Below are positions 32,140 through 37,402 of a stretch of 64,000 nt of DNA, in pieces. The notes beneath the pieces are model-generated. The model saw nothing but the letters and a program-made list of their open reading frames with translations. It was not told the DNA's origin and did no database searches. Both the position numbers and the translations under genes were made by a program. This stretch comes from Stigmatella aurantiaca (GTDB lineage Bacteria > Myxococcota > Myxococcia > Myxococcales > Myxococcaceae), in NCBI RefSeq assembly GCF_900109545.1, contig NZ_FOAP01000007.1, positions 1 through 64,000 of the forward strand, written 5' to 3'. The first letter of the stretch is position 1, and each line of letters starts with the position of its first letter.

Positions 32140-32853
32140 TCAGGGACTGAGGATGAACCCCTCGCGGACGCACCCCGCCACCGCCCGGTGGACGGTGTCC
32201 ACCAGCATGCCCGTGGCCGCCGCCACCGCCTCGGGCGACAGCCCCTCCAGGGCCATCTTCACCACCAGCAGCGCCCGGTCATGGGCGGGCATGAACCACG
32301 TCGTCAGCTGCTGGGGATGGCGCCACAGCAGCGCCATCTCCTCCCCTTCCTGAGGCGCGGGGGCCTGGCACTGGCCCCGCACCCAGGCGCAGAGCCGGAA
32401 CGGGTGCTGCAACATCGCGAGCGTGGGGTTCACCGTGAGCCGCTCCACCGGCCCCGGCAGCGGCTCCTCGGAGGCGTAGACCGTCCAGTCCGTCCACTCG
32501 AAGCGTGCCAGCGCGGGGATGAACGCCTTCAGCCCCAGGGCCTCGGCCTGGTCCGCCACGTAGGCCGGGAACCCCTCTCCCAGCTGGTTCATCTCGTAGT
32601 GCCGGGCAGGCCGTTGGACCTCAAACCCATCCAGCAAGGCGGTCCAGCACTCGGGGCCCACGCTCGCCTGGGTATACGGATAGAGCTTCGCCAGCGTCGC
32701 ACGGACGTGGTGGCTCACGAACTCGCCGTAGAGCGCCACGCGGGCGGGGGCTTCGTCCCAGCCGGGGTGGGAGGCCCGCAGGCGCTCCAGCCCGGAAGGG
32801 GCCGCCAGGAAGTCCGTCATCGAGTCGAAGAAGTGCCGCAAGCCGGGCTTCAT
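32140..32853 (-). CDS. DUF2063 protein, partner of the DUF692 oxygenase (BufC/MbnC-like)
   Basis: 237 aa. ATG 32853 overlaps the DUF692 stop codon (ATGA, 4 nt), so the longer open frame from 32991 is not used. The N-terminal helical domain (LRHFFDSMTDFLAAPSGLER, VSHHVRATLAKLYPYT) is the DUF2063 'putative DNA-binding' domain. In MNIO pathways this family is the partner protein that binds the precursor and supports catalysis by the DUF692 enzyme, rather than a transcription factor. FEWTDWTVYA and a C-terminal LWRHPQQLTTWF are also typical of the family. Its position directly after the oxygenase gene and the precursor supports this role. Confidence 0.85.
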   Translation of the reverse strand: MKPGLRHFFDSMTDFLAAPSGLERLRASHPGWDEAPARVALYGEFVSHHVRATLAKLYPYTQASVGPECWTALLDGFEVQRPARHYEMNQLGEGFPAYVADQAEALGLKAFIPALARFEWTDWTVYASEEPLPGPVERLTVNPTLAMLQHPFRLCAWVRGQCQAPAPQEGEEMALLWRHPQQLTTWFMPAHDRALLVVKMALEGLSPEAVAAATGMLVDTVHRAVAGCVREGFILSP

Positions 32854-33695
32854 CGCACGGCCTCCTTCAGGAGCTTCCGGGCCCCATCCGCCTCGTCCAG
32901 CACCGCCTCCAGCGAGGGGATGTCCTGGTCCCACTCGATGAGCGTGGACACGGGCCCGGTGCGCTCCAGCACGTAGCGGTAGAGCGACCACACGCCGTCA
33001 CATACGGGGCCGCCATGGGTGTCGATGAGCACGTCCGGCCGGCGCTCGTGCCCGGCCAGGTGAATCTGCACCACCCGCTCCAGCGGCAGCGCGTCCACGA
33101 ACGCCCGCGGCGCGTAGCCGTGGTTCTGGGCGTTCACATAGATGTTGTTCACATCCAGCAGCAGGCCACAGTCGGCCTCTTCGGCCACGCAGCGCAGGAA
33201 GGTGGCCTCGCTCAGCGTCCCTCCCGGCATGCGCGCGTAATAGCTCGGGTTCTCCAGCAGGAAGGGACGGCCCACCCGGTCCATCACCTCGCGGACCCGG
33301 GGAACCACGTGCTCCACCGCCTCCTCGTTGAAGGGCAGCGGCAGCAGGTCATGCAGGTACACCCCGCCCAGGCGCGAATAGCAGAGGTGATCCGAGAAGA
33401 AGGGCGACTCCAGCCGCCGTGTCAGCGCTGCCAGGCGGGTGATGTAGCCGTCGTCCAGCGGATCCGGCCCGCCGATGTTCAGCCCCACCCCGTGGGGGAG
33501 CAGCGGCCAGCGCTCGGCACAGGCGTCCAAGGCCTGTTGAGAGCGTCCGCCCAGGGTCAGAAAGTTCTCGGGGACGATCTCCACCCAGTCGAGCGCGCGC
33601 TCCGTGAGCGGCAACGTCTCGTAGAACCCGCGCCGCAGCCCGATCCCCGCGCCGAGGAACTTCAATCCATGCCTGTGGGCGTAGCCGTGGGACAC
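32850..33695 (-). CDS. DUF692 multinuclear non-heme iron oxygenase (MNIO; BufB-like)
   Basis: 281 aa from GTG 33695, chosen because GAGGAG lies 6 nt upstream and the family's N-terminus (GLKFLGAGIGLRRGFYE) follows; the frame is open to 33764 but that stretch encodes a hairpin and lacks family similarity. The TIM-barrel metal ligands are in place: LPHGVGLNIGG, FFSDHLCYS, LLENPSYY, LLLDVNNIYVNAQN, QIHLAGH, DTHGGPV and LIEWD. MNIOs use a di- or tri-iron site and O2 to modify cysteines of precursor peptides (thiooxazole or related groups). The precursor candidate is the gene just upstream; the partner DUF2063 gene is 4-nt overlapped downstream. Confidence 0.9.
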   Translation of the reverse strand: MSHGYAHRHGLKFLGAGIGLRRGFYETLPLTERALDWVEIVPENFLTLGGRSQQALDACAERWPLLPHGVGLNIGGPDPLDDGYITRLAALTRRLESPFFSDHLCYSRLGGVYLHDLLPLPFNEEAVEHVVPRVREVMDRVGRPFLLENPSYYARMPGGTLSEATFLRCVAEEADCGLLLDVNNIYVNAQNHGYAPRAFVDALPLERVVQIHLAGHERRPDVLIDTHGGPVCDGVWSLYRYVLERTGPVSTLIEWDQDIPSLEAVLDEADGARKLLKEAVR

Positions 33696-33721
33696 CGGAG
33701 GCTCCTCGGAAGGGGACAACA

Positions 33722-33753
33722 CCCTTGGCGGGAAGGCCTCTTCCCGCCAAGGG
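33722..33753 (-). promoter_or_regulatory. Perfect 14-bp hairpin between RiPP precursor and modifying-enzyme genes
   Basis: CCCTTGGCGGGAAG (33722-33735) and CTTCCCGCCAAGGG (33740-33753) are perfect complements around a 4-nt loop. It sits 30 nt downstream of the precursor stop and 27 nt before the GTG of the DUF692 gene. With no U tract it is better read as an attenuator or RNA-stabilising stem that would leave more precursor mRNA than enzyme mRNA, as in many RiPP operons. Confidence 0.65.
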
Positions 33754-33782
33754 GTCCTGCGCATGCTGCGTGAGGCGGGCGG

Positions 33783-34058
33783 TTACTCCTTCTTGCCGCC
33801 GCACTTCCCCTCGCCACACTTCCCCTCGCCGCACTTCCCCTCACCACACGTGCCCTCCTGGCCCTTCGGGGCGGAGGGGGCCGCCGTGGTGTCGCCCGCG
33901 GCGCCCTGCTCGGGAGCAGCCGCCTGGCTGCCGGGAGACGGGGCCGAGGTATCGCCGGAGGCAGGAGCGGCCTCCGCGGACTTGGAGGACGCACAACCGG
34001 TGGCCAGCGCGCTGAGCGAGAGGGTGCCAACAACCGCGGCCAGAGCCTTGACGTTCAT
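33783..34058 (-). CDS. Bufferin-like RiPP precursor lipoprotein with four EG(T/K)CG repeats
   Basis: 91 aa. The signal peptide ends in a lipobox (SLSALATGC, C22). An Ala/Pro/Ser/Gly-rich flexible linker (about 25-66) follows, then four tandem pentamers EGTCG, EGKCG, EGKCG, EGKCG (68-87) and GKKE. EGKCG is the cysteine motif described for bufferins, exported copper-binding peptides whose cysteines are converted by DUF692 enzymes. Next to the DUF692 and DUF2063 genes this is the obvious substrate. It differs from known bufferins in being a predicted lipoprotein; Ala at +2 favours outer-membrane sorting. ATG 34058 overlaps the upstream peptidase stop by 4 nt. Confidence 0.82.
   Translation of the reverse strand: MNVKALAAVVGTLSLSALATGCASSKSAEAAPASGDTSAPSPGSQAAAPEQGAAGDTTAAPSAPKGQEGTCGEGKCGEGKCGEGKCGGKKE
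33798..33857 (-). repeat. Four tandem 15-bp repeats encoding EG(T/K)CG
   Basis: Exactly 4 x 15 bp, with third-position drift between units (GCC/ACC and CGC/CAC variants on the plus strand) and one unit encoding Thr in place of Lys. The drift shows that the peptide repeat is maintained by selection rather than being a very recent slippage product. Confidence 0.85.
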
Positions 34059-35587
34059 GGATGCTTCCTTTCGAGACTGCGTGGAATGGACTGCGAGGAC
34101 GGGGGGACAGTGGCATACCGCCGTTCATCCGCTGCCACTGCGGGGAGGCTGCTGGCACTCCGGCTTTCCAGAGTTTCACGCAACAGGCTCTCCCGGGCGG
34201 GATGCAACCGGATGCCGCCCGGCGTGGGCGTCACCCCCAACGCTTCTAGCAAACCCCCCAACCCGGCAAAAGCAGGTTCACGCAGGTGCCGGGCCAGCAC
34301 TTCGTCGAAGACGGGCTTCCCCGCCACGGCGTCCACGGCCGCGCCATAGGCCGCTGGCGTCGAGGTGGGTCCCTCCCGGGCCAGGTGCTCCAGCACGTCC
34401 TCCAACCCCCGCTGGTGCTGGGTGACTCGCCGCAGCTCCACGTCGAGCATCAGGGAGAGGTACGCGCCCACCCAATAAATCCCCGGAGGTGCGTCCTCTT
34501 GAATCATCTCCTCCAGCGTCCGCCCCGCGGCCTGCGCCTTTCCTCGCTCGAAGCCCTCCAGCAGCCGCGTCCAGGCCTGCACGGGCGTCAGCCGTCCCGA
34601 GCGTGCCCGGGCCAGCTCCGTGAAGTAGGTGGCCAGCCCCTCGGAGATCCACGCCGTGCGCGGCTGGAAGGCGGGGTGGGTCAGGTGCAGCAACTCGTGG
34701 AGCGCGGCCCAATCCGCTTCCAGCGCGTCCAGGCGTGCCTCCTGTCCCACCAGCAGGGAGATGCTCGGTGGAGCGCTCCACATCAGCATGCCGAAGAGGT
34801 TGGGCCTGCTGGAGCCCTCCACCGGGACGACGTGCAGGGCCACCCGTGGGGAGGGGAACGTCCGCCGCACGGTGAGCAGCTGCCCCGCGGTCCGCTCCAG
34901 CCAGCCGCAGACCGCCGCCTCCTCCAGGTGGCGCATCGGCGCGACGAGGGCCACGTCCAGCACCATCCCCGGCAGCCGGGCCTGGCACCGTCTTCCCCCG
35001 AAGCTGTGAAAGCCCGAGTCCACCAGGTCCTCGGCGGTCAACCGGTAGTGCCCTGCCGCATCCGGCACCCAGGGCAGCAGGGCCTCCGCCCCGGTCAGCG
35101 AGAGCTCCACCCGCCGGGACGGCGAGGCCCCCCAGGGGCGCAGCAGCCAGGTCCTCCCCGCCAGGTGCCGGGCCTCCCCCTGCCCCATTCCGGTGAAGAA
35201 GCCCGGCCCCCGCTCGCGGATGAGTTCATCCAGGGGGTAGCGGTAGCGCAGCGAGCGCGTTCCCGCGGGCAGCCGCACCCGGCCTCCGGAGACGGGCAAC
35301 CCCTCCGCGGGCCCCCCTCCCCCGGAGAATGCCCAGACGGTCTTCACCCCACCCGGCTCGGTAAACAGGAACTCCTGCGCTCCTTCCTGATCGAGCACCA
35401 CCTCCACGTCCAGGGCGTGCCCGGGCTCGCGCACATAGGCCACGTGGTACCGCAAGGCCCTGGGGGCCTCCCGCGGCCCCGGAGGGGCCACGGGCTTCAC
35501 CGTCTGGCAGGCAGACAGCCCCAGCAGAAGCGCCAGGAGCCCCGGCCCCCCTCCAGTAAAAAAGTGCCTGCCTCCCCTCTTTTTCAT
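34055..35587 (-). CDS. M61-like gluzincin peptidase, lipoprotein
   Basis: 510 aa. Lipobox LLGLSAC (C27). An N-terminal beta domain (YHVAYVREPGHALDVEVVLD) resembles the peptidase M61 N-terminal domain. The catalytic part has HELLH at 297-301 and the third zinc ligand E316 in AWISEGLATYFTE, the HExxH-(14-18)-E spacing of gluzincins (M1/M61). Predicted to act at the envelope on peptides. It is the first gene of the operon and is coupled to the bufferin-like precursor by a 4-nt ATGA overlap. A processing or turnover role for the modified lipoprotein is possible but is inference. Confidence 0.78.
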   Translation of the reverse strand: MKKRGGRHFFTGGGPGLLALLLGLSACQTVKPVAPPGPREAPRALRYHVAYVREPGHALDVEVVLDQEGAQEFLFTEPGGVKTVWAFSGGGGPAEGLPVSGGRVRLPAGTRSLRYRYPLDELIRERGPGFFTGMGQGEARHLAGRTWLLRPWGASPSRRVELSLTGAEALLPWVPDAAGHYRLTAEDLVDSGFHSFGGRRCQARLPGMVLDVALVAPMRHLEEAAVCGWLERTAGQLLTVRRTFPSPRVALHVVPVEGSSRPNLFGMLMWSAPPSISLLVGQEARLDALEADWAALHELLHLTHPAFQPRTAWISEGLATYFTELARARSGRLTPVQAWTRLLEGFERGKAQAAGRTLEEMIQEDAPPGIYWVGAYLSLMLDVELRRVTQHQRGLEDVLEHLAREGPTSTPAAYGAAVDAVAGKPVFDEVLARHLREPAFAGLGGLLEALGVTPTPGGIRLHPARESLLRETLESRSASSLPAVAADERRYATVPPSSQSIPRSLERKHP

Positions 35588-35767: not shown

Positions 35768-35795
35768 GTTGCAAATCGGTAAATCGGTTTGCAAA
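35768..35795. promoter_or_regulatory. Paired TTTGCAAA-type boxes, candidate ScfR/RamB operator
   Basis: GTTGCAAA (35768-35775) and the perfect palindrome TTTGCAAA (35788-35795) are 20 nt apart, about two helical turns, and end 53 nt before the regulator's start codon. The second box reads TTTGCAAAGTTC, close to the motif I recall for corynebacterial RamB (AACTTTGCAAA on the other strand), a member of this regulator family. Autoregulation is the simplest inference. Confidence 0.65.
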
Positions 35796-35848
35796 GTTCC
35801 AGAGAGCAGAAGGCCCCGGCCAGGGGAGGCCTCTGTGTGGACCAGGGA

Positions 35849-37402
35849 ATGAACGAGAACGCACTCAACGCGAACGTGGGCCTCAAACTGCGGGGCTTGC
35901 GGCTCGCACGGAACATCAAGCAGACGGATGCCGCGAAGGACCTGGGGGTCTCCCCCGCGTACCTGAACCTCATCGAGAAGGGCAAGCGGGTGATGCCCTT
36001 CCCGCTGCTGTGGAAGGCGCTGCGCTACTTCGATCAGGACCCCGAGCAGTTCATGTCCACGCTGGGCGAAGGCCGCGTGGACGAGGCCCTGGCGAAGCTC
36101 CTGGACGAGCCGCTCCTGAAGAGCCTGGACATCGACTCCGAGTCCCTCCAGAGCCTGTCGGCGGAGCCGAAGCTCGCGGGCACCGTGGCCGCCCTCTTCA
36201 ACCTCTACAAGAACACGCGCACCCAGCTGGAGAACGTGCTGACGCAGCTGTCCGCCGAGGAGCGGACGCGCGCCCAGACGGGACAGACTGGCGGCACCGG
36301 CCCCGGGCTGCGCTTCGACTACTCGCCCTTCGACGAGGTGAGCGACTTCCTGGAGTCCCACCGCAACTACTTCCCGGAGCTGGAGGAGCAGGCGGAGGCG
36401 ATGCGCCGGGACTTCCAGCTGGAGCGGCTGCTCACCAGCGCCCAGCTCATCCGCTTGCTGGAGGAGCGCTTCGGGTTCCGGGTGCAGTTCGAGCATGCGC
36501 CCAGCGGCTCGTCCGTGGTGCGCCGGTTGGACCTGGAGGAGCAGACGCTCACGCTCTCGCCGGACCTCACCGAGCAGCCGCTGAAGTTCCAGGTGGCCAC
36601 CAGCCTCGGCCTGCTGCTGATGGACCGGGAGAAGCTGGTGGAGCGCATCGTGGGGCATGGCCGCACCCGCCACGCCGAGACGCAGCGGCTCATCAAGGTG
36701 AACCTGTCCAACTACTTCGCCGGCGCGCTGATGCTCCCTTACGGGGACTTCTTCAAGGAAGTGGAGCGCACGCGCTACGACGTGGAGCTCTTGTCCAACA
36801 TCTTCGGCACCACCTACGAGACGGTGGCCCACCGCTTCTGCAACCTCTCGGACCCGAAGCGCACGGGCATCCCCTTCCACTTCCTGCGCGCGGACATCGC
36901 CGGCAACATCTCCAAGCGCTACAGCGGCACGGGGCTCAAGTTCGCCACGGGCGGCGGCTCGTGCGGCAAGTGGGCCGTGCACCTGGCCTTCCTCAACCCC
37001 GGCCAGCTCACGCGCCAGTATTCGATGATGCCGGACGGGGCCACCTACTTCTGCTTCGCCAAGGTGCAGCTCCAGCCCATCGAGGGCTCCATCGTCAAGG
37101 GCACCGCCTACTCCATTGGCCTGGGCACCCACGCGGAGAACGCCAAGTACCTGGCCTATGGGCTGCCGACCAACGACTTGCGCAAGGACGCGGTGGCCAG
37201 CGGCATCACCTGCCGCTTCTGCGAGCGGACCGATTGCAACCAGCGCTCCGCGGCCAGCTACCGCTTCGCCTTCGCTTTTGACGAATACACCAAGAAGGAC
37301 TGCTTCTTCTCGCCCCTGCTCGTCCACGAGGGCGGCAAGGGCGAGCGGGGAGAGCCCCTGGACAAGGCGCCGCGGCGCCGGAACAAGGACGGCGAGGGCT
37401 GA
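35849..37402 (+). CDS. ScfR/RamB-type XRE regulator with IrrE-like and DUF2083 domains
   Basis: 517 aa from ATG 35849 (AGGG just upstream; the open frame from 35789 adds residues that overlap the operator boxes). An N-terminal HTH_3 domain (LRLARNIKQTDAAKDLGVSP and AYLNLIEKGKR) is followed by a coiled region, an ImmA/IrrE-like domain without a clear HExxH (ATSLGLLLMDREKLVERIVG), and a C-terminal DUF2083 domain with paired cysteines (ITCRFCERTDC). The architecture is that of short-chain fatty acyl regulators (RamB, MldR, ScfR), which sense acyl-CoA or propionate metabolism. It is divergent from the bufferin-like operon across 261 nt. Confidence 0.88.
   Translation: MNENALNANVGLKLRGLRLARNIKQTDAAKDLGVSPAYLNLIEKGKRVMPFPLLWKALRYFDQDPEQFMSTLGEGRVDEALAKLLDEPLLKSLDIDSESLQSLSAEPKLAGTVAALFNLYKNTRTQLENVLTQLSAEERTRAQTGQTGGTGPGLRFDYSPFDEVSDFLESHRNYFPELEEQAEAMRRDFQLERLLTSAQLIRLLEERFGFRVQFEHAPSGSSVVRRLDLEEQTLTLSPDLTEQPLKFQVATSLGLLLMDREKLVERIVGHGRTRHAETQRLIKVNLSNYFAGALMLPYGDFFKEVERTRYDVELLSNIFGTTYETVAHRFCNLSDPKRTGIPFHFLRADIAGNISKRYSGTGLKFATGGGSCGKWAVHLAFLNPGQLTRQYSMMPDGATYFCFAKVQLQPIEGSIVKGTAYSIGLGTHAENAKYLAYGLPTNDLRKDAVASGITCRFCERTDCNQRSAASYRFAFAFDEYTKKDCFFSPLLVHEGGKGERGEPLDKAPRRRNKDGEG

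Follow-up and report, generated by a model that had tools for sequence, protein, structure and literature searches.

A short run of minus-strand genes in Stigmatella aurantiaca raises two questions: what kind of modified peptide does it make, and does the zinc peptidase encoded with the peptide precursor belong to the system? The genes lie within a window of 64,000 nucleotides, by which is meant the whole stretch of DNA analysed (assembly GCF_900109545.1, contig NZ_FOAP01000007.1, positions 1–64,000 of the forward strand). They encode an M61-like peptidase, a lipoprotein precursor of a ribosomally synthesised and post-translationally modified peptide (RiPP), a maturase of the MNIO (DUF692) family and a DUF2063 partner protein. 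The operon is real and conserved across myxobacteria, and its presence in tens of genomes shows that it is not a product of chance. The peptidase is an accessory component, a frequent but dispensable partner, and the product is probably a lipid-anchored peptide displayed on the cell envelope.

The operon and its precursor family

Read along the minus strand, the block begins with the gene for the M61-like peptidase (34055..35587), a gluzincin of 510 residues that is predicted to be a lipoprotein (Cys27) and carries HELLH at 297–301 together with E316. The precursor gene (33783..34058) follows, and then a 14-bp intergenic stem-loop (33722..33753) that is kept in relatives with paired changes, the gene for the BufB-like MNIO (32850..33695) and that for the DUF2063 protein (32140..32853). 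The first and third junctions, peptidase–precursor and MNIO–DUF2063, are 4-nucleotide overlaps, and 87 nucleotides separate the precursor stop codon from the likely MNIO start, a GTG behind GAGGAG; the list of open reading frames has an ATG at 33764. An earlier reading of the same DNA, the first-pass annotation, had described this four-gene run, and its genes, positions, overlaps and hairpin-bearing gap are all confirmed.

The MNIO and DUF2063 proteins are what that annotation took them to be, both exceeding curated Pfam cut-offs. The MNIO scores 340 bits against MbnB_TglH_ChrH (PF05114, cut-off 25) and the DUF2063 protein 47.8 bits against PF09836 (cut-off 27.2). Among the NCBIfam models the MNIO passes BufB (316 bits, cut-off 310) and does not reach HvfB (279 bits, cut-off 360). 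It aligns to 3bww with an E-value of 1.2e-58, keeping the LDVNNIYVN, HxAGH, DTHG and E-x-D motifs, and its Asp256 is aligned with the Asp of ERDF in 3bww, which we take to be the counterpart of the FonB catalytic base Asp249, FonB itself lying outside the alignment. According to PMC13097082, the position following the catalytic Asp holds Phe in the MNIOs that act on Lys-Cys (EGKCG) sequences (Phe250 in FonB) and Asp in those that act on Cys-Lys. The window protein has Gln257 at this place where Phe would be expected for the Lys-Cys subgroup, and Gln is found in 60 of the 63 readable proteins (72 MNIOs, nine of them unread by the pattern). The window MNIO and its relatives form a separate subgroup and are not simply oxazolin enzymes.

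The 91-residue precursor carries a signal and lipobox with Cys22, an Ala/Pro/Ser-rich tether and a C-terminus that reads EGTCG-EGKCG-EGKCG-EGKCG-GKKE. Its relatives were collected through a signal-sequence pattern that excludes Cys, giving 67 precursors of which 66 are complete (the partial one, in L114, was left out), and the export signal was judged by pattern and conservation. The lipobox pattern is one that we take to be PS51257-like. In all 66 complete precursors the first Cys is at position 22 within a lipobox pattern, followed by Ala in 64 and Val in two, and all have a CxxxxC near the C-terminus. The first-pass reading, that of a RiPP operon with MNIO and DUF2063 proteins and a precursor predicted to be a lipoprotein, is supported. 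EGKCG, which had been treated as the hallmark, occurs in just six of the 66, and the label of an EGKCG family was abandoned; the Lys-rich repeat of the window is a local variant, the core typical of the family being like EGSCGAGSC. Of 243 core cysteines, 148 have Ser before them, 45 Gly and 20 Lys; 174 are followed by Gly and 52 by Ser. In FonBC substrates the Cys may be preceded by Ala, Arg or Thr and is best followed by Gly or Ala (PMC13097082), and with this range of tolerance the Ser-, Gly- or Lys-Cys-Gly cores would be plausible MNIO substrates. The window precursor barely passes the NCBIfam model KCGExKCG_twice (19.6 bits, cut-off 19.5), does not reach the HvfA equivalog NF050188 (15.6 bits, cut-off 95) and has no DUF2282 match in a Pfam scan.

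Of 145 genomes of the class, the peptidase is matched in 71, the MNIO in 106 and the precursor profile in 65; the first pass of the peptidase survey scored at most 10 candidates per genome. Apart from that of the window, every peptidase match was examined with its neighbourhood of up to about 15 kb, as were 10 further MNIO matches. An MNIO adjoins the peptidase in 62 of the 71 genomes, the window included, is absent in four (L122, L126, L130 and L132, the last a 27-bit match) and cannot be judged in five, where the contig ends (L102, L114, L121, L128, L131). Carriers of the block include Myxococcus, Corallococcus, Archangium and their relatives, with L151 the record from Myxococcus xanthus. 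The order in this main clade is peptidase, YceI-like gene where present, precursor, MNIO, DUF2063. A different order, MNIO–DUF2063–peptidase, is seen in L123, L124, L125, L127 and L129, whose peptidases are 27–33% identical to that of the window. Outside the phylum, a Planctomycetota metagenome-assembled genome (MAG) carries the peptidase (41% identical), a lipoprotein precursor with four SCGGK units, the MNIO and the DUF2063 gene (L170, 5001-8554), reflecting either transfer or mis-binning.

Further copies were seen in passing. L139–L142 contain a second, closely related MNIO–DUF2063 pair with no peptidase in the stretch examined; the hairpin is absent or weak in L140–L142, and the L139 precursor was missed by the pattern and found by the profile (G113). 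The record L162, by its title Comamonas sp. KCTC 72670, has a Myxococcus-like copy of the block and is probably mislabelled or contaminated. The genome of the window itself has a second MNIO on another contig (C2, L223:3873-5549), a 558-residue protein whose long C-terminal extension may be a fused partner domain; its gene lies near open reading frames that look by eye like an ABC transporter and a methyltransferase.

The M61-like peptidase and its linkage

The peptidase had been called M61-like, and this stands for the zinc site and the predicted fold, the Pfam family threshold not being reached. Against Peptidase_M61 the window protein scores 16 bits (cut-off 22), and for this reason it is labelled M61-like and not M61; only one of four relatives scanned passes (L184, 24.5 bits). 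H297, E298, H301 and E316 do not vary in any row of the alignments (26 of 26 and 55 of 55), and HExxHx14E is found in 70 of the 71 peptidase reading frames, the exception being the 27-bit match. The predicted model, with a mean predicted local distance difference test score (pLDDT) of 88.6, has an M61/M1-type fold, and its best matches are M61 enzymes: Foldseek aligns it to 7xyo from Myxococcus fulvus (E-value 3.8e-21), and superposition on 4fgm gives a VIA Z of 27.2 and a root-mean-square deviation of 3.2 over 409 residues. The family profile matches M61 chains in the PDB at 1.2e-9. With the M61 aminopeptidases 7xyo, 4fgm and 8j9c the window protein shares predicted fold and HExxH...E, but identity is 15–20% and it differs in being a lipoprotein encoded within a RiPP operon as well as in its sub-cut-off score. 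The protein is a distant M61-like zinc peptidase and, judged by its active-site residues, is probably active.

Is it part of the system? The first-pass annotation held that the peptidase is built into the operon and coupled to the precursor. As synteny the first claim survives, through the 62 of 71 genomes, but the peptidase is not an invariant part. At five orthologous loci, L133–L136 (one genus) and L138, the regulator, precursor, MNIO and DUF2063 genes lie at the same place without a peptidase; SerC and a chalcone-isomerase-like gene form the downstream flank in L133–L136. Absence from orthologous operons is what the annotation itself had said would remove the peptidase from the system, and it is because of these five loci that the peptidase is regarded as accessory. 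As to coupling, the 4-nucleotide overlap of the window is real, but among the loci listed it recurs only in the genus-mate L063; elsewhere the peptidase ends earlier, and conserved translational coupling was rejected.

A wider search in named genomes, in which the best 80 of 222 relatives were kept, gives a different proportion, the two sets overlapping in many contigs so that their counts are not independent. An MNIO is present in the examined stretch at 30 of these best 80 loci, and at 47 of the 53 less similar ones (L170–L222) it is missing, several of the stretches being cut by contig ends. Eight of the 47, all from unlinked Polyangia relatives (L173, L174, L175, L180, L185, L190, L199, L200), share an ABC1-kinase gene, which adjoins or overlaps the peptidase frame in seven and scores 235 bits against PF03109 in L185. 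No one neighbour is common to the unlinked peptidases, the largest cluster (20 loci) consisting of antisense reading frames. Given the 47 loci and the ABC1-kinase neighbours, the wider peptidase family evidently has other settings.

A tree was built from 89 peptidases, of which 39 are linked, 35 are unlinked and 15 carry no label; it requires five changes of the linkage label, of which at least four are forced by well supported branches. The main clade, with L170, has 36 rows: 32 linked, one unlinked (L171) and three not judged. The other linked members are a second clade of five with the alternative gene order, L186 from a Sandaracinaceae MAG, and L129. The tree does not separate gain from loss, and its history is either one of several recruitments or one of an old linkage lost many times.

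The compartments of peptidase and precursor appear to match. In the main clade, where 57 of 60 peptidases have the pattern, and in L170, the two proteins are each predicted to be lipoproteins. The precursors of the second linked clade (L123, L124, L125, L127, L203) are not lipoproteins and have signal peptidase I (SPI)-like signals, with cores such as GGEKSCGADGKSC or GEKSCSGEKGCSG, and their peptidases are SPI-like too. Release from a membrane is consequently not a general role of the peptidase. This match is suggestive, few cases being independent, and is weakened by the many unlinked Polyangia peptidases that are also lipoprotein-like. In L186 the precursor is lipobox-like and the peptidase start unclear, and no precursor was seen at the L129 locus.

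The intergenic hairpin and neighbouring genes

The hairpin of the window folds at −42 kcal/mol, against −31.5 (standard deviation 3.4) for shuffled versions, a z of −3.1. A stem-loop lies between the precursor and MNIO genes at 63 of 66 loci, counted without a shuffled control; two second-copy loci have no room for one and in one locus it is weak. Among the copies listed, a few fold no better than their shuffles (z −0.8 in L063, −0.9 in L085, 0.2 in L087 and 0.4 in L090). An alignment of 56 of the 63 rows was made, leaving out L072, L074, L076, L077, L079, L081 and L087, in which another or longer hairpin had been picked. Paired cells make up 94.6% of it compared with 44–66% in slid controls, its covariation score of 0.226 exceeds both that of shuffles (0.164) and the highest slid value (0.120), and eight of the 14 pairs are changed on both sides, compared with 3.4 in shuffles. 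Sliding by a single column also yields eight such pairs, with 14 cells against 23 unslid, and the choice of rows through a stem search itself biases the set towards pairing. In many copies the tail is rich in T (GTGTTGTTT, GTGTCTTTT), a hint of leaky termination, but the window's own copy was not flagged by the terminator scan. Because a palindromic protein site would covary too, a role as RNA is something that we only infer. Five loci (L074, L076, L077, L079, L081) have a second strong hairpin, of the CGAGGGCCTGGTGAAGGCCGGGCCCTCG type, ahead of the conserved one.

A YceI-like gene is found in the operon at 25 loci, by pattern, and two of its products scored 75 and 77 bits against PF04264 (cut-off 23.7). 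The window and its nearest relatives, L063–L065, have none in the operon. The genus-mates behind L063–L065 carry a YceI-like gene beside an orphan precursor elsewhere (L227:3505-4415, L228:3413-4367, L229:3540-4448), with no MNIO, DUF2063 or peptidase gene within the 8.5 kb examined. As these pairs occur alone, YceI seems tied to the precursor and not to the peptidase. Relocation of the operon-type gene within the window's own genome was considered and rejected, its three YceI matches scoring 154–187 bits, as against 75–77, and the genome having one precursor match only. Upstream of the operon stands a divergent gene for a RamB/ScfR-like helix-turn-helix regulator with an IrrE-like domain (35789..37402, plus strand). 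Most main-clade loci have this gene as their flank, those without the peptidase included, and by position it is a conserved neighbour and at most a candidate regulator.

What the operon may make and display

The nearest published system is NedABC of Neisseria dentiae, in which the EGKCG RiPP-lipoprotein NedA, expressed in E. coli, is tri-acylated and loses 4 Da per EGKCG (PMC12636315). It resembles the window operon in its lipoprotein signal, repeated EGKCG core and MNIO with partner protein, and it differs in coming from another phylum and, in the accessible text, in lacking any mention of a peptidase, a YceI gene or an intergenic hairpin; in the myxobacterial family, moreover, EGKCG is just local. 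The view in the first-pass annotation that a lipoprotein precursor is new does not hold, NedA having been published and lipoprotein signals having been predicted for about 16% of Buf2 bufferins (PMC12452194). The captophorins, namely the oxazolin HvfA, fontiphorin FonA and gonophorin, likewise combine an MNIO and a DUF2063 protein (PME1) with a Cys-repeat precursor bearing Lys-Cys repeats, and 5-thiooxazole formation and copper binding are assigned to them (PMC13097082, PMC13419390). From these the window departs by missing the HvfA model, by Gln in place of Phe after the catalytic Asp and by its predicted lipoprotein precursor. With the bufferins Buf1/Buf2 and Buf_EGKCG it has the bufABC gene order in common, along with an MNIO that passes the BufB model (PMC12452194), but its precursor has no DUF2282 match. 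DoxX, frequent though not universal in the published clusters, was not seen among the eight window proteins scanned with Pfam, no search having been aimed at it.

Uncharacterised CxxxxC precursors have also been grouped, as a cluster in PMC12452194 and as the lipoprotein Cluster X in PMC12636315. These share with the myxobacterial precursors a signal peptide or lipobox and the conserved CxxxxC, and the myxobacterial proteins may already be members; Lactamase_B_2, present in 54% of the CxxxxC clusters of PMC12452194, was not seen at the myxobacterial loci. The accessible text of PMC12636315 names Myxococcota just for ChrH-type clusters, and the main text of PMC12452194 has no word starting 'peptidase' or 'Myxococc'. 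A literature search returned no paper pairing an MNIO with M61 or with YceI, and none on this operon under MNIO, myxobacteria and RiPP as judged by titles and abstract openings. The chemistry is of a known kind, and the M61-like peptidase is a partner for which that search found no published description.

The operon, then, probably makes and displays a lipid-anchored, MNIO-modified metal-binding peptide, a thiooxazole of the captophorin or bufferin type, together with an envelope peptidase. The cytoplasmic steps would begin with the DUF2063 protein presenting the precursor to the MNIO, which, by analogy with HvfBC, FonBC, BufBC and NedABC, would oxidise the core cysteines to 5-thiooxazole with an expected loss of 4 Da each. 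The lipobox predicts Sec export, lipidation at Cys22 and cleavage by signal peptidase II. Lipidation at Cys22 and the flexible tether would keep the modified Cys array on the cell envelope, where copper, or some other soft metal, may be bound. Placed downstream of the precursor gene, the stem-loop might raise the level of precursor mRNA over that of the enzymes. The least certain step is that of the peptidase, which in the same envelope compartment may release, trim or turn over the tethered precursor or its breakdown products.

Several observations weigh against this proposal. Gln257 is not the residue expected of an EGKCG enzyme, and among the eight window proteins scanned with Pfam there was no metal gene or known metal regulator that would point directly to copper. 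The peptidase is missing at the five orthologous loci, an MNIO accompanies only 30 of the best 80 peptidases, ABC1-kinase genes mark another setting, and the second linked clade lacks lipoprotein precursors. The hairpin signal is affected by the row selection and the one-column control, and the terminator scan passed over the window's copy.

Other explanations share much of this evidence. It is possible, if doubtful, that the peptidase frees the modified core from its lipid tether to give a diffusible metallophore, membrane display being a staging step; the shared lipoprotein prediction in the main clade and L170, the Ala/Pro/Ser-rich tether and the speculation of the authors of PMC12636315 that a prolyl oligopeptidase so acts on another RiPP-lipoprotein all favour this, but in the MNIO–DUF2063–peptidase clade both proteins are SPI-secreted-like, leaving nothing to release, and the nearest solved folds are aminopeptidases, which an N-acylated terminus would block. 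Somewhat less probable is an ordinary captophorin- or bufferin-type operon, with the peptidase as a bystander that happens to share the transcription unit in Myxococcaceae and Archangiaceae. The five loci with the same upstream flank and no peptidase are what such a bystander would leave, as are the 47 unlinked loci and the ABC1-kinase neighbours of eight of them, yet linkage holds at 27–33% identity in another gene order and changes at least four times on the tree.

The product itself might serve otherwise. A modified lipoprotein for a metal other than copper, or for redox or envelope stress, with the YceI-like protein as partner, is unlikely, since the characterised 5-thiooxazole peptides bind copper (PMC13097082), even if no copper gene was seen among the scanned window proteins and YceI-like genes occur at 25 loci and beside the orphan precursors of three genus-mates. 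It is most improbable that there is no modification and that the precursor is a plain Cys-rich lipoprotein, the MNIO acting on something else. Orphan precursors without an MNIO within about 8.5 kb (L227–L233) and the departure of Gln257 would agree with this, but the precursor gene lies just upstream of the MNIO gene with the stem-loop between them at 63 of 66 loci, and the core cysteines are mostly followed by Gly or Ser.

Returning to the preferred reading of a displayed, modified lipoprotein, a wider and distinctly speculative form of it can be offered. Envelope-tethered thiooxazole lipoproteins that bind metal may form a class of their own, and their operons may repeatedly have come to include an M61-like peptidase dedicated to processing or recycling the modified peptide after lipidation, with the hairpin setting the ratio of precursor to enzyme mRNA and the YceI-like protein as an optional partner. 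If true, such a RiPP system would have its own surface peptidase built in, at work once the peptide is lipidated. The MNIO group has tens of thousands of members (PMC13097082), and lipidated MNIO RiPPs have only just been demonstrated; the myxobacterial version is conserved, predicted to lie on the envelope and often found beside a peptidase. Two candidate partners, the M61-like peptidase and the YceI-like protein, can now be named, and the Myxococcus xanthus locus offers a genetically tractable setting for studying how lipidated thiooxazole peptides are displayed and processed and what they do.

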